Assembly (NCBI GenBank): GCA_902795955.1
Contig: CADBNJ010000033.1
Span: 1 to 19,023, forward strand
Direction: 5' to 3'
Length of the DNA: 19,023 bases
Source of the DNA: Oscillospiraceae bacterium
GTDB lineage: Bacteria > Bacillota > Clostridia > Saccharofermentanales > Saccharofermentanaceae
Notes under the pieces: generated by a model
Database searches by the model: none
What the model saw: the letters and a program-made list of their open reading frames with translations, nothing else
Told to the model about the DNA's origin: nothing
Program-made: the position numbers and the translations under genes
In this document: positions 14,409-19,012 of the stretch, in pieces
How the letters are laid out: each line of letters starts with the position of its first letter
How positions within the stretch are numbered: position 1 is the first letter of the stretch

Positions 14409-17018
14409 TCATCTCTTAGAGTATTTATCCTTGTACATCTCGACATCGGCAATATGCGTGATGGCGTCTATATTTGCCGTATTGGCACTGATCACCATCT
14501 CGCCGCATCCGATACTTGCCTTTACACGGTATCTCTTACCGCTGACGGAACTGTCTTTCTGAATGATGTCGTTGATCATGTCACGTATCATTCCGATCTT
14601 CCCTGCCAAAGGTGTATCTCCAATAATAACGAAAGCAAACTCATCACCGCCGTAGCGTGCGCAGAAACCGGAATTGCCGACATAAGTCTTAATTGCATTC
14701 GCGAGCGCCTTGATCGCCAGATCACCTTCGTTATGGCCGTAATAATCGTTAATGTTCTTCAGTCCGTCAAGATCTGCAGTAAAGTAAGTGATCCATTTAC
14801 CGGCATTATCAGGAGCGGAGACGGCGCTGTTCACTTCCGTCATGAAGCCGCGTCTGTTATAAAGACCTGTAAGATAGTCTGCATTGGACATTCTCTCGAT
14901 CTCCTGATTAGCCGTTATCAGTTGTCTGTTATTGATAACCGAATGGATCATGGCAGACACGAATAATGAGAACTCCTCAAAACGCTGCTCTGATCTGAGC
15001 GATATCTCGCTGAGCCCTGATGCAATATACCCGAACGACTCTGTTCTTGCCTTTGCCTGCTTGAATAACAGTATGTTGATACCGCTGTCTTCAGCAAGCA
15101 ACAGGTTCATGTCAGGCAGCACCTCCGGCATATGGAAGAATTTGCGGTCATATTTATACTCTCCGCCCCATCCTTCAAAGATGGCGTGGATCCAGTCCTC
15201 GTCTTCGCGGATGCCTATAAAATAATACTGATCCTTCCAAAGCCACAGATAATGCTGCAGATCGGCAGAAGCTTCGACAACGTCGCTCATGCTGATCGTT
15301 CTGGAGATAAATCTTCCCATCTCGAGCATGTGTCTGAAATAATCCTGGTTGTCATTATTCAGATTCGACACTATGACAGGCCATTTATCCTGATCGTCAT
15401 GCCTGCAGTTGCACGAATGACGCAGGACAATGTTATAACCGACCTTGATATCCTTCTCACTGCGGTCGAAGGAATTCATGATATCAAGAATGGTGTCTTT
15501 CATAAACTCATAATCAGGTTCGCACGTCGTTATGGAAGGTGTCTGGAATTCGCTCTTCCAGATGCCGTCAAAACCCGTAACCAGGCAATCTTCAGGTACC
15601 CTGTATCCATACTTCTTAAGAGCGTCACACACACCGATCGCCATTGAATCATTAGCACAAACAAAGGCCTGAGGGACTTTGTATCCTGACCTCAACAAGG
15701 CTTCGAGCACGCGATATGCGGCTGCGTCCCAGAAATCACCGTAATGAACCCTCATCTCATCGAAAGGAATGCCGTTCTCTTTGAGAACACTCTTATATAT
15801 CTCAATACGTTCTTCAGAGAATGGATTGCCTCTGAAGCCTGCAAACATGTCAACTTCACGCAGTCCGTGATCCTCAACTATATGGCGGACCATTTTCTCA
15901 AAACCGTCTGCATAATCAAGCTGGAAATTGATGCAGAAAGGCATGGTGTGCTCAAACATCATTACGGGGATACGGCGCTTATGAGCGTTATTGATAAGTC
16001 TTGCTATCACCTTCTCATTCTTGATCATCTCTCCGAAGATTATGATGCCGCTGAGACCGACTGTATCAATAAAATTGGCAAAACGCAGGTCTGATTCCAG
16101 CGAGTCTTCATTTGGCGAAGGAATGCTGAAAGTGAAGACCGTAAGAACATAGTCCTTTGTAACATCGGGAGACTGAAGGCTTCTGATAAACATATTGAAG
16201 TTCTCGGCATCTTCCCACACACCGCAGATTCCGAGCATTTTACGCCTTCTGCCGGTGACAGGCAGAACAAAATCCTCTCTGCGAAGTATTCTTACATAAT
16301 CAACACACATTGAATTGTCAGGACCAAAGACAGTATCTGAATCAGGGACCCCGGGCCAGTCACCGCCGACAGCCACGCCCATGACCAGATACATCGGGTG
16401 ATCAAATGACTTGGGTTCCTCGCACTTGAAGTATTCGACACCATCGACAAAGAATCTGATGAGTCCCGGCTCCCAATCACACGCATAAACATGGAATTCA
16501 CTGTCAGGCGCGTGCTCGGGATCTATCTTATAAATACCCTGCTGAAGAATGTGATGCGGATTGTCTCCTCCCGATGCGGAATGGATCGTACCGTACAGGA
16601 CATTGGGTTCGGAGCAGTTATACTCCATAATGTCTATCTCTCCGCATCCGGGCCAATTACCGTACTTGTCCGTATCCGATACAAGACTGAATACAGGCCT
16701 CAGTCCTTTGCCCTTGGGAACCTTGACCTTTGCTTCAAAGTATCCGTAACGGAATTCGTGCTTGCCGAATGTACTGATTCGTCCTGATGTATACCTTAAA
16801 GAACCGTCAGGCATGTGATCCTTGACAGGACAAATATATATATGTCCGTCCCTGACAAAAACATTGCGTTCGCTGGCAACATATTCCTGAAGCTCATGGA
16901 AGAACTTGCCTTGCGCATGGATCTCCTCGTTCCATTCGGCAAAGCTTAAAGCATCACCTATGAAATCATCAGACCAGATCGGCTCAAATCCTTCCGGTAT
17001 CTCAAAATCAGCTCTCAT
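14409..17018 (-). CDS. GH16 glucanase domain - LacI-type sugar sensor - GGDEF diguanylate cyclase fusion
   Basis: This 869-residue protein has at least three parts. Residues 10-246 form a GH16 (laminarinase-type beta-glucanase) domain with the catalytic EIDIME: E127 nucleophile, D129 and E132 acid/base, plus GVAVGGDWPG (214-223) and CVDYVRI (238-244). Residues about 260-535 are a LacI/GalR-type sugar-binding core, with CANDSMAIGVCDALKKYGYR (454-473) and VTGFDGIW, but without a helix-turn-helix. Residues about 550-700 form a weakly GAF-like region and helix. Residues 705-869 are a GGDEF domain with DYLTGLYNRRGF (714-725), metal-binding D749 and intact RYGGDEF (788-794). The inhibitory RxxD site is absent (GNSG at 782-785), so feedback inhibition by c-di-GMP is unlikely. 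No signal peptide or membrane helix is seen. The start has an AGGT site inside uppP, one base upstream. Domain calls are strong; biological role is inference. Confidence 0.9.
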   Translation of the reverse strand: MRADFEIPEGFEPIWSDDFIGDALSFAEWNEEIHAQGKFFHELQEYVASERNVFVRDGHIYICPVKDHMPDGSLRYTSGRISTFGKHEFRYGYFEAKVKVPKGKGLRPVFSLVSDTDKYGNWPGCGEIDIMEYNCSEPNVLYGTIHSASGGDNPHHILQQGIYKIDPEHAPDSEFHVYACDWEPGLIRFFVDGVEYFKCEEPKSFDHPMYLVMGVAVGGDWPGVPDSDTVFGPDNSMCVDYVRILRREDFVLPVTGRRRKMLGICGVWEDAENFNMFIRSLQSPDVTKDYVLTVFTFSIPSPNEDSLESDLRFANFIDTVGLSGIIIFGEMIKNEKVIARLINNAHKRRIPVMMFEHTMPFCINFQLDYADGFEKMVRHIVEDHGLREVDMFAGFRGNPFSEERIEIYKSVLKENGIPFDEMRVHYGDFWDAAAYRVLEALLRSGYKVPQAFVCANDSMAIGVCDALKKYGYRVPEDCLVTGFDGIWKSEFQTPSITTCEPDYEFMKDTILDIMNSFDRSEKDIKVGYNIVLRHSCNCRHDDQDKWPVIVSNLNNDNQDYFRHMLEMGRFISRTISMSDVVEASADLQHYLWLWKDQYYFIGIREDEDWIHAIFEGWGGEYKYDRKFFHMPEVLPDMNLLLAEDSGINILLFKQAKARTESFGYIASGLSEISLRSEQRFEEFSLFVSAMIHSVINNRQLITANQEIERMSNADYLTGLYNRRGFMTEVNSAVSAPDNAGKWITYFTADLDGLKNINDYYGHNEGDLAIKALANAIKTYVGNSGFCARYGGDEFAFVIIGDTPLAGKIGMIRDMINDIIQKDSSVSGKRYRVKASIGCGEMVISANTANIDAITHIADVEMYKDKYSKR

Positions 17019-17019
17019 T

Positions 17020-17892
17020 CTATTTACCTATAATACCCGTGAGGCCGAAGATAAGCACCATAAGCCCCAAAACGATCCTGTAGAAAGCGAACACGTTAAA
17101 GTTATGCTTTCTAATATAACTCATCAGAGCCTTGATTACAAATAAACTAACTATGAACGCGGACACCATTCCGATGAGCAGGAGCACGATCTCGGTACCA
17201 TTGATGGAACCGTCATACTTCAGAATCTTAAGGAGGCTTGCACCGAGCATAACAGGCACGGCAAGGAAGAAAGTGAACTTAGCGGCACAGCTCCTGCTTA
17301 TCTTGATCATCAATGAACCGACGATAGTCGTACCAGATCTTGAGGTTCCCGGGAAGATCGCAGCGATCAGCTGGAAGACTCCGATAATAAAGGCATGCTT
17401 ATAAGTGATCTGCTCGATCTTGGTGATCTCTGGCCTGATCTTGTTCTTCTTGAGAACTGACTCAGTTACGATAAAGATAATACCGAATATTATCAGTGAT
17501 ATTGCAACTACAACATAGTTATAGAGATGCTCGTCAAGCCAGTCATCGAGGACAATACCGACGATGGCTGCAGGAATACATGCCACAAGGATCTTGAACC
17601 ACATCTGAAAGATATCTGTCTTGATATATCTGCCTGCTCCCTGCTTCGACAGCGGATGCGCATTGTTCTTCGCACCGAAAGGCCATAATTCCTTCCAGAA
17701 CAGCAATATAACGGCACAGATAGCGCCAAGCTGGATGACGACGAGATAGAGACCGAAGAAATCCTCGGAAACATTTATCTTGAGGAACTCGTTCAGCAGG
17801 ATCATATGTCCTGTCGAGCTTATCGGAAGCCACTCCGTTATACCTTCAACGATACCGAATATAAGTGCAACAATATAATCCCAGATTACCAT
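17020..17892 (-). CDS. uppP: Undecaprenyl-diphosphate phosphatase (BacA/UppP family)
   Basis: This 290-residue membrane enzyme removes one phosphate from undecaprenyl diphosphate, recycling the lipid carrier for peptidoglycan and other wall polymers; it also gives bacitracin resistance when abundant. Both active-site motifs are intact: EGITEWLPISSTGH (16-29), with E16, E20 and H29, and PGTSRSG (181-187). About eight hydrophobic segments are visible and the length is typical. The frame is open to an ATG at 17931, but that codon falls in an inverted repeat, and AGGAG six bases before the ATG at 17892 sets the start. The GH16-GGDEF gene starts one base after its stop, so both are probably translated from one mRNA. 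Confidence 0.96.
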   Translation of the reverse strand: MVIWDYIVALIFGIVEGITEWLPISSTGHMILLNEFLKINVSEDFFGLYLVVIQLGAICAVILLFWKELWPFGAKNNAHPLSKQGAGRYIKTDIFQMWFKILVACIPAAIVGIVLDDWLDEHLYNYVVVAISLIIFGIIFIVTESVLKKNKIRPEITKIEQITYKHAFIIGVFQLIAAIFPGTSRSGTTIVGSLMIKISRSCAAKFTFFLAVPVMLGASLLKILKYDGSINGTEIVLLLIGMVSAFIVSLFVIKALMSYIRKHNFNVFAFYRIVLGLMVLIFGLTGIIGK

Positions 17893-17923
17893 AAAAACTC
17901 CTAAACAAATAATACTGTCACAT

Positions 17924-17946
17924 TCTATCACGAACAGCGTGATAGA
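17924..17946 (-). repeat. Inverted repeat upstream of uppP
   Basis: Nine-base perfect arms, TCTATCACG and CGTGATAGA on the minus strand, flank a five-base CTGTT. The repeat lies between the stop of the membrane protein gene (17967) and the uppP start (17892). It has no T-tract after it on either strand, so it is a weak terminator candidate. It could be an operator or an RNA hairpin in the uppP leader. No convincing uppP promoter was found; a TTGACA overlaps the upstream stop codon, but its -10 is poor. Confidence 0.55.
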
Positions 17947-18827: not shown

Positions 18828-18912
18828 TGGTGGGAGGAGGTGGATTCGAACCACCGAAGTCGCTGACGACAGATTTACAGTCTGTTCCCTTTGGCCACTC
18901 GGGAATCCTCCC
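18828..18912 (-). tRNA. tRNA-Tyr (GTA)
   Basis: The minus strand folds into a class II tRNA. The acceptor arms GGGAGGA and TCCTCCC pair over seven bases and are followed by A and an encoded CCA. The anticodon loop CTGTAAA gives GTA at 18878-18876. A long variable arm and the GGTTCGAATCC T-arm are present, as expected for bacterial tyrosine tRNA. Confidence 0.97.
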
Positions 18913-18935: not shown

Positions 18936-19012
18936 TGGTGGGCCTTCAGGGACTCGAACCCAAGACCGACCGGTTATGAGCCGGTTGCTCTAACCAACTG
19001 AGCTAAAGGCCC
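18936..19012 (-). tRNA. tRNA with CAT anticodon (elongator Met, or Ile2)
   Basis: The minus strand has acceptor arms GGGCCTT and AAGGCCC, a D-arm with TAGCTCAGTTGGTTAGAGC, anticodon loop CTCATAA with CAT at 18978-18976, and T-arm GGGTTCGAGTCCC, then A and an encoded CCA. It lacks the three G-C pairs and acceptor mismatch of initiator tRNA. Elongator Met and the lysidine-modified Ile2 share this anticodon; overall similarity to both is high, so the identity is left open. Confidence 0.95.

Follow-up and report, generated by a model that had tools for sequence, protein, structure and literature searches.

A GH16 glucanase-type domain fused to a LacI-type core and a diguanylate cyclase in a family of predicted cytosolic proteins from gut bacteria

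A 19,023-nucleotide stretch of DNA from an Oscillospiraceae bacterium (contig CADBNJ010000033.1, hereafter the window) encodes an 869-amino acid protein in which a glycoside hydrolase family 16 (GH16) domain is joined to a LacI-type sugar-binding core and a GGDEF diguanylate cyclase. This protein is probably a soluble diguanylate cyclase that responds to carbohydrate, with its glucanase-type GH16 domain serving as an input module rather than as a metabolic glucanase. Most members of its family have lost catalytic residues from a GH16 domain that selection nonetheless maintains, which suggests that a secreted-type glucanase domain has been turned into a sugar sensor. The original prediction for this gene, made from the sequence alone, recognized the three main modules. 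A GAF-like domain, membership in a genus-wide family and the finding that most relatives have lost catalytic residues are additions to it.

The reading frame (14409..17018, minus strand) begins with ATG and has no internal stops. Its modules are arranged in the order GH16, LacI-type sugar-binding core, GAF-like domain, signalling helix and GGDEF. Three of them give Pfam matches above the curated cut-offs: GH16 (residues 75-226, E=8.9e-19), Peripla_BP_3 (residues 383-536, E=5.6e-19) and GGDEF (residues 712-868, E=1e-26). The last is also matched by NCBIfam TIGR00254 (4.1e-30). In phmmer searches, residues 14-245 align to the solved glucanase 3atg (E=1.4e-39), and the sensor core matches the cores of CcpA, LacI and PurR. 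A single frame with these three modules had been proposed originally, and the profile searches suggested as a check recover all of them. The catalytic residues are likewise where they had been placed. The GH16 motif GEIDIME begins at residue 126, giving the ExDxxE acids E127, D129 and E132, and an intact GGDEF motif occupies residues 790-794.

The full-length structure model that had also been called for was computed with AlphaFold2 (AF2) and has a mean predicted local distance difference test (pLDDT) score of 88.4 and a predicted template modelling (pTM) score of 0.68. In addition to matching the GH16 profile, the N-terminal region has a predicted beta-jelly-roll fold that is close to the laminarinases. 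The ligand core is periplasmic-binding-like and of the LacI/GalR type. The middle domain, modelled alone, has a predicted GAF fold; searches with the full-length structure gave only GH16 and LacI-type chains among the matches listed. None of the protein's six Pfam matches is to the helix-turn-helix head of LacI/GalR regulators, whose position is taken by GH16 as first proposed, and none is to an anti-sigma-I domain of the RsgI type. NCBIfam LacI models cover core positions only among the 25 of 42 matches listed. Its domains make the protein a diguanylate cyclase that carries a LacI-type core and GH16, and not a secreted GH16 enzyme, a LacI regulator or an RsgI protein.

Two residues of the sensor core, R404 and D484, do not vary in an alignment of 51 family members, which were drawn from 120 listed proteins. 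A second alignment holds 24 of 27 sequences (the window's protein and 26 fragments). The core ends in an SCxC motif that is kept in 49 of 49 fusions, a possible metal or redox site.

The fusion is present in 49 of 85 genomes (G000-G084) of a Saccharofermentans-like genus of gut bacteria. These species-level fusions comprise 10 short forms of the window's type (868-887 amino acids) and 39 long forms (1032-1144 amino acids), whose extra segment sits between GH16 and the sensor. A GH16 profile built from 22 secreted paralogues matches all 49 (worst E 2.2e-56) and also all 85 full-length fusions taken from the protein database (worst E 2.4e-56). That database search listed 120 of 1278 matches. Those listed include 85 fusions at full length, of which 20 are short forms and 65 long forms. 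Carriers on record are named Saccharofermentans sp., Mageeibacillus sp., Clostridiales bacterium and Ruminococcaceae bacterium YRB3002. When 115 genomes from five genera of the taxonomic family were searched at E<=1e-60, matches were found in 55 genomes of a single genus and in none of the remaining genera.

The source genome is a fragmented draft (349 contigs, 68.85% complete), and this is the point in favor of an assembly or annotation artefact that joined separate genes by error. The chance of such an artefact is vanishingly small. Independent genomes also encode the protein in one frame, at 94, 71, 67 and 55% identity and lower. The closest of these orthologues (L038) is 94% identical to the window's protein, and that of YRB3002 (L040) is 71% identical across residues 1-869. 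Together they exclude in practice a stop or frameshift between residues 246 and 262, which had been named as the break that would leave GH16 and the sensor in separate genes, and the single-frame orthologues rule out an assembly chimera. One scan of viral contigs with six short patterns, suited to close relatives only, gave nothing that points to a viral origin.

The front of the protein is variable. Among the matches listed, a precomputed CBM_4_9 domain lies in the extra segment of 27 of 65 long fusions; it was confirmed in P0030 and P0066 and was not found in P0022. The same sensor-GGDEF core also occurs with Barstar (P0096, Pfam 2.6e-16), with a carbohydrate-binding module (CBM) only (P0095) or with nothing recognized (P0081) at its front, and 17 proteins among the matches listed have a precomputed Barstar domain. 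On a quick tree of cores, CBM-only, one bare and another N-terminal form fall within the long group; therefore, front modules appear to have been lost or exchanged. This tree has 72 rows, includes 22 of the 65 long forms, omits 5 fragments or core-less rows, and assigns the label 'GH16+CBM' by length. By resemblance, Barstar-like N-termini also precede this core in a paralogue from the window's own genome (L002, contig C113, 220-2388, minus strand) and in L116, L117 and L118, Barstar being a barnase inhibitor.

The E-D-E catalytic residues are complete in 22 of 22 secreted GH16 paralogues examined versus 5 of 49 fused domains. The secreted set consists of two proteins from the window's own genome and 20 of the best-scoring GH16-only matches, and is not a random sample. 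The five intact fused domains are those of the window, L038, L039, L040 and L042, while at least one of the three residues is missing from the other 44. At the nucleophile position, the 49 fused domains carry Gln (25), Ser (10), Glu (7), Arg (3), Asp (2), Cys (1) or Thr (1). Among the database fusions listed, 12 of 85 retain E-D-E.

In a careful tree of 107 GH16 domains, computed with the triad columns removed, all fused domains fall on one side of one branch (96/84). Parsimony requires four changes between intact and lost triads on this tree, three of which are forced by its starred branches; the nucleophile column alone takes 11 changes and the acid/base column 17. The outline is the same in a species-level tree of 71 domains, where the split between fused and secreted domains is weak (60/92) and three changes are needed. 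If the intact secreted domains are taken as the outgroup, the parsimony reading is that the triad was lost four times, mostly with Gln or Ser replacing the nucleophile. Four changes are also obtained from one loss and three regains of the entire triad, although this is biologically unlikely.

The dead GH16 domains are not decaying. They are under purifying selection like that on the adjacent sensor core. The ratio of nonsynonymous to synonymous divergence (omega, NG86 method) in 12 close pairs with dead triads is 0.040-0.143 for the GH16 bin versus 0.035-0.120 for the sensor core. The 12 pairs are not independent, as several share members. In six of them the GH16 bin spans 325-352 codons and thus includes part of the extra segment; the other six, with bins of 245-250 codons, give 0.053-0.143. 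The sensor bin of the L108-L110 pair contains extra codons (373), and the window-L040 pair was left out because its synonymous divergence (dS) is saturated.

Replacement of the nucleophile by Ser has a parallel at the bench. The nucleophile of ZgLamA was reportedly changed to Ser by biochemists to trap substrates. In SCLam, another GH16 laminarinase, the nucleophile mutant E144S has no activity and served to measure oligosaccharide binding (PMC7961093).

In the window's own clade, the catalytic acids are conserved, and the cleft has been rebuilt. This clade comprises the window's protein and eight others (P0001-P0009) with full-length identities of at least 67%. All nine keep E127, D129, E132, W122, H146, H156 and W221. 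Compared to all 22 secreted domains, all nine replace Trp with S111 and Asn with Phe or Tyr at position 40, which precedes an ELQ motif and is F40 in the window's protein. According to the authors of the SCLam study, W129 drives the substrate chain between subsites -1 and +1, and sugar contacts are made by Y52, W139, H169, W240 and N53 (PMC7961093). Judged by our own reading of residue spacing, W129, W139, H169, W240 and N53 of SCLam would correspond to S111, W122, H156, W221 and F40.

Clefts in the long forms have changed in other ways. W122, H156 and W221, all invariant in the secreted domains, are kept in 11, 3 and 6 of 39 long forms, respectively. Among the database fusions listed, long forms with a Ser nucleophile have W122 in 18 of 18 and N40 in 16 of 18 cases. 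Those with Gln have Phe at position 122 in 31 of 32 and Tyr or Phe at position 156 in 30 of 32. With more than the triad changed, the ligand of the dead clades may be no beta-glucan at all. It is plausible that they bind some sugar, which need not be the same glucan.

The fusion protein is predicted to be soluble and cytosolic, as the original prediction had it. The evidence consists of crude hydropathy and lipobox tests, which found neither the signal peptide or lipobox of secreted GH16 laminarinases nor a transmembrane helix in the window's protein. The best 12-residue Kyte-Doolittle mean within its first 60 residues is 0.42, and the best 19-residue mean over the entire protein is 1.4. The N-terminal 12-residue maximum of the fused proteins (49) lies between -0.29 and 1.36 and that of the secreted paralogues (22) between 1.97 and 3.02, with no overlap. 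Lipobox-like motifs occur in 0 of 49 fused and 16 of 22 secreted proteins. On the other side, some 19-residue window reaches at least 1.6 in 15 of 49 fused proteins (maximum 1.79, beginning at residue 476 of its protein). A GGDEF cyclase requires GTP, which is cytosolic. Because of these tests and this need for GTP, the GH16 module is taken to be intracellular, and an exported fusion protein is ruled out at the level of the same tests.

The diguanylate cyclase motifs are complete throughout the family, as 49 of 49 fusions keep the residues of both GGDEF and DxDxxKxxND. The RxxD inhibitory site, an optional feature, is found in 0 of 49 genome fusions and 0 of 85 database fusions. GGDEF and EAL genes are numerous in the window's draft genome, with seven EAL matches. 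PilZ domains are found in 0 of 39 and MshEN domains in 37 of 39 genus genomes searched, which points to type IV pili as a main target of cyclic diguanylate (c-di-GMP). The pilus ATPase MshE binds c-di-GMP through MshEN, its N-terminal domain (PMC11731258), and the type IV pilus ATPase is the likeliest c-di-GMP target here. By our own reading, the MshEN domain of the window's genome contains two RLG repeats with the five-residue spacing of the published consensus; it deviates by Ser for the final Gln of the first repeat and by Phe, Met, Ile or Val in place of some leucine-type residues. The c-di-GMP riboswitches RF01051 and RF01786 gave no matches in 13 genomes of the same genus among 21 searched. 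In Fibrobacter, a rumen cellulose degrader, the abundance of GGDEF proteins changes on cellulose (PMC6851124).

A supply of intracellular ligand is also suggested. GH94 phosphorylase domains occur in 39 of 39 genus genomes searched. Phosphorylases of this type are usually intracellular, and their occurrence suggests that beta-gluco-oligosaccharides reach the cytosol.

These observations are consistent with the following mechanism. Carbohydrate would be sensed by two modules stacked in one protein: the GH16 domain, whose relatives are secreted beta-glucanases, and the LacI-type core. Beta-gluco-oligosaccharides taken up by the cell, or some comparable glycan, would bind the GH16 cleft, the LacI-type core or both. 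The GAF-like domain and the long helix would relay binding as a reorientation of a dimer, which would set the output of c-di-GMP from GTP by the GGDEF domain. In most of the family, GH16 would be a pseudo-enzyme kept for a noncatalytic role, most simply binding. Members of the window's clade, which keep the catalytic acids, may still process the ligand or may use these acids for binding. By acting on the type IV pilus ATPase, c-di-GMP could tie the sensing of glucan breakdown products to attachment. A bolder account, which we regard as possible but on the doubtful side, has a secreted laminarinase-type glucanase becoming an intracellular glycan receptor and abandoning its active site repeatedly, largely through Gln or Ser. 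The window's clade, with its acid triad kept in a remodelled cleft, would then be an enzyme-receptor hybrid, in which c-di-GMP reports beta-glucan products and drives pilus attachment to plant fiber.

Two other explanations give the GH16 domain a different role. In one, which is closest to the original prediction, the GH16 domain encoded in the window works in the cytosol as a glucanase. It would shorten an oligosaccharide that the cell has taken up and pass the product on to the LacI-type core, which would set c-di-GMP output. The retention of E127, D129, E132, W122, H146, H156 and W221 while identity drops to 67% argues for such an enzyme, as do a GH16 omega of 0.033 between the window and L038 and the predicted likeness to laminarinases. 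However, catalysis seems unnecessary for the common function of the family, because the triad is incomplete in 44 of 49 members and was lost four times by parsimony. S111 and the aromatic residue at position 40 also speak against it within the clade itself, and overall we consider this explanation rather unlikely. The original prediction had allowed GH16 either to trim or to hold a beta-glucan oligosaccharide before handing the product over, and holding fits better. Trimming and handover are not the general mechanism of the family, because catalysis would be needed where so many triads are incomplete, but the window's copy may hydrolyse beta-glucan. In the other explanation, GH16 is a scaffold or protein-contact domain that has no carbohydrate ligand left, and only the LacI-type core and the GAF-like domain sense. 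The Barstar fold is known for protein binding and can take the front position on the same core, and cleft residues beyond the triad have changed in dead clades. Such a scaffold is nevertheless improbable, given the cleft residues W122 and N40 kept by Ser-nucleophile long forms, the CBM_4_9 domains of long fusions and a GH5 cellulase gene downstream in one clade.

Several observations weigh against a carbohydrate-input role for GH16 that is linked to pili. If catalysis had no use in the window's clade, it would be surprising that nine of nine members conserve the triad. Long forms keep H156 and W221, both invariant in secreted domains, in just 3 and 6 of 39 cases. The core does not need GH16, because bare, CBM-only and Barstar fronts occur on it. 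MshEN has to carry the output side by itself, because no riboswitch or PilZ domain was found. The window's copy is flanked by uppP and a citrate synthase gene, with no carbohydrate-active enzyme (CAZyme) gene directly beside it, and the link with GH5, which stems from a single clade, amounts to few events.

The closest working analogue of the fusion is RsgI6 of Clostridium thermocellum, whose GH10 module has very low activity and binds its carbohydrate (PMC4711584). In both cases the signalling protein of a plant-fiber degrader would use a weakly active, carbohydrate-binding hydrolase domain as its sensor. However, RsgI anti-sigma-I factors span the membrane, place the sensor outside and bind a sigma factor, whereas the fusion carries GH16, is predicted to be soluble and cytosolic, and would signal through c-di-GMP. 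The closest evolutionary analogues are the insect beta-glucan recognition proteins and GNBPs, GH16-family immune receptors that bind beta-glucan and have lost the catalytic glutamates (PMC6403176). These animal proteins have neither a cyclase nor a LacI-type core. An inactive GH16 domain need not be a glucan receptor, since the catalytically inactive bacterial protein Rv0315 does not bind laminarin (PMC4606783).

Diguanylate cyclases with periplasmic-binding-like, LacI-type sensors place the same sensor type upstream of GGDEF (PMC8846402). They differ from the fusion in having no glycoside hydrolase module, and the term 'glycoside hydrolase' has no occurrences in that review. Such proteins are also encoded in the window's own genome (contig C24, by BLAST). 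Laminarinases of GH16 whose structures are known, such as 2hyk, 3atg and SCLam 6xof, are stand-alone or CBM-linked enzymes, whereas the fused domain has no signal peptide and is attached to a cytosolic cyclase. The literature search found one published fusion of hydrolase and GGDEF domains, the GH126-GGDEF protein of Bacillus velezensis (PMC7479077). It belongs to a different hydrolase family, has SAERF in place of the GGDEF motif, and is described in the available excerpt with no report of a LacI-type core. Two other candidate precedents were rejected: in the excerpt of PMC11340318 GH16 and GGDEF are separate genes, and that of PMC5457731 describes a HAMP-GGDEF protein with claimed glucosidase activity and no separate GH domain. 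No GH16-GGDEF protein was found in the library searches, in agreement with the original statement that no described protein joins the three modules. A literature search for pseudoenzyme sensors gave nothing relevant among the matches listed.

The input signals of many diguanylate cyclases are not known. Input modules drawn from carbohydrate-active protein families make the class of signal guessable and testable. Within the family, GH16 sites on a shared signalling core grade naturally from intact to degenerate, and the step from enzyme to receptor can thereby be tested directly. If glucan fragments do set c-di-GMP levels in these gut bacteria, food detection and attachment would be joined in a single soluble protein, a bacterial counterpart of the glucan receptors of insects and of the RsgI6 sensor with its GH10 module.

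Table 1. Features of the fusion gene and its upstream neighbor in the window
Feature	Position	Strand	Basis
GH16 - LacI-type sensor - GAF-like - GGDEF fusion gene, 869 amino acids	14409..17018	-	Open reading frame, Pfam, single-frame orthologues
GH16 domain, residues ~10-247	16278..16991	-	
GH16 catalytic motif E127-x-D129-x-x-E132, intact	16623..16640	-	
S111 (Trp in 22/22 secreted paralogues examined; Ser in 9/9 of the window's clade)	16686..16688	-	
LacI-type ligand-binding core, residues 258-535, without DNA-binding head	15414..16247	-	Pfam, phmmer
S-C-N-C (SCxC) motif ending the sensor core, residues 535-538	15405..15416	-	SCxC in 49/49 species-level fusions
Helix and GAF-like domain, residues ~540-672	15003..15401	-	
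Long (signalling) helix, residues 674-712	14883..14999	-	AF2 secondary structure
GGDEF diguanylate cyclase domain, residues 712-868	14415..14885	-	Pfam/NCBIfam
GGDEF active-site motif, residues 790-794	14637..14651	-	
uppP/bacA (undecaprenyl-diphosphate phosphatase)	17020..17931	-	Pfam BacA 5.2e-84

The fusion gene lies 1 nucleotide downstream of uppP and is faced by the citrate synthase gene. L038, L039 and L040 have the same gene order and the same 1-nucleotide spacing. Context was counted in 37 of the 39 long-form genomes, as the flanks of L026 and L031 are short, and neighbors were labelled by BLAST to reference genes that were checked with Pfam in one or a few loci. A second gene for a GGDEF protein with a LacI-type sensor follows directly on the same strand in 24 of these 37 loci. 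In another eight, the fusion is followed by a phospholipase D (PLD)-type, cardiolipin-synthase-like gene that overlaps it by 4 nucleotides and then by a GH5 cellulase gene. The second sensor-GGDEF gene comes next in seven of the eight, and the remaining locus reaches the contig end. Since all eight are from the same clade, no p-value is given for the GH5 linkage; GH5 as such is found in 82 of 82 genus genomes searched. The other five long-form loci have neither arrangement, one of them being at a contig end. A GH5 gene is located further downstream in the short-form loci L041 and L042 and upstream in L047, and a GH3 gene is located further downstream in L049.

Examples of the PLD-type gene that overlaps the fusion stop codon by 4 nucleotides are found in L043 (9111-10676) and L091 (8692-10281). 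A gene of approximately 220 codons that has no Pfam match lies upstream of the long fusion in L079 (6288-6968, plus strand), on the same strand and separated from it by approximately 30 nucleotides. Genes like it, as judged by length and position only, occur in many long-form loci. Two tRNA genes (18831-18912 and 18939-19012, both on the minus strand) are recognized by Rfam at the edge of the window.

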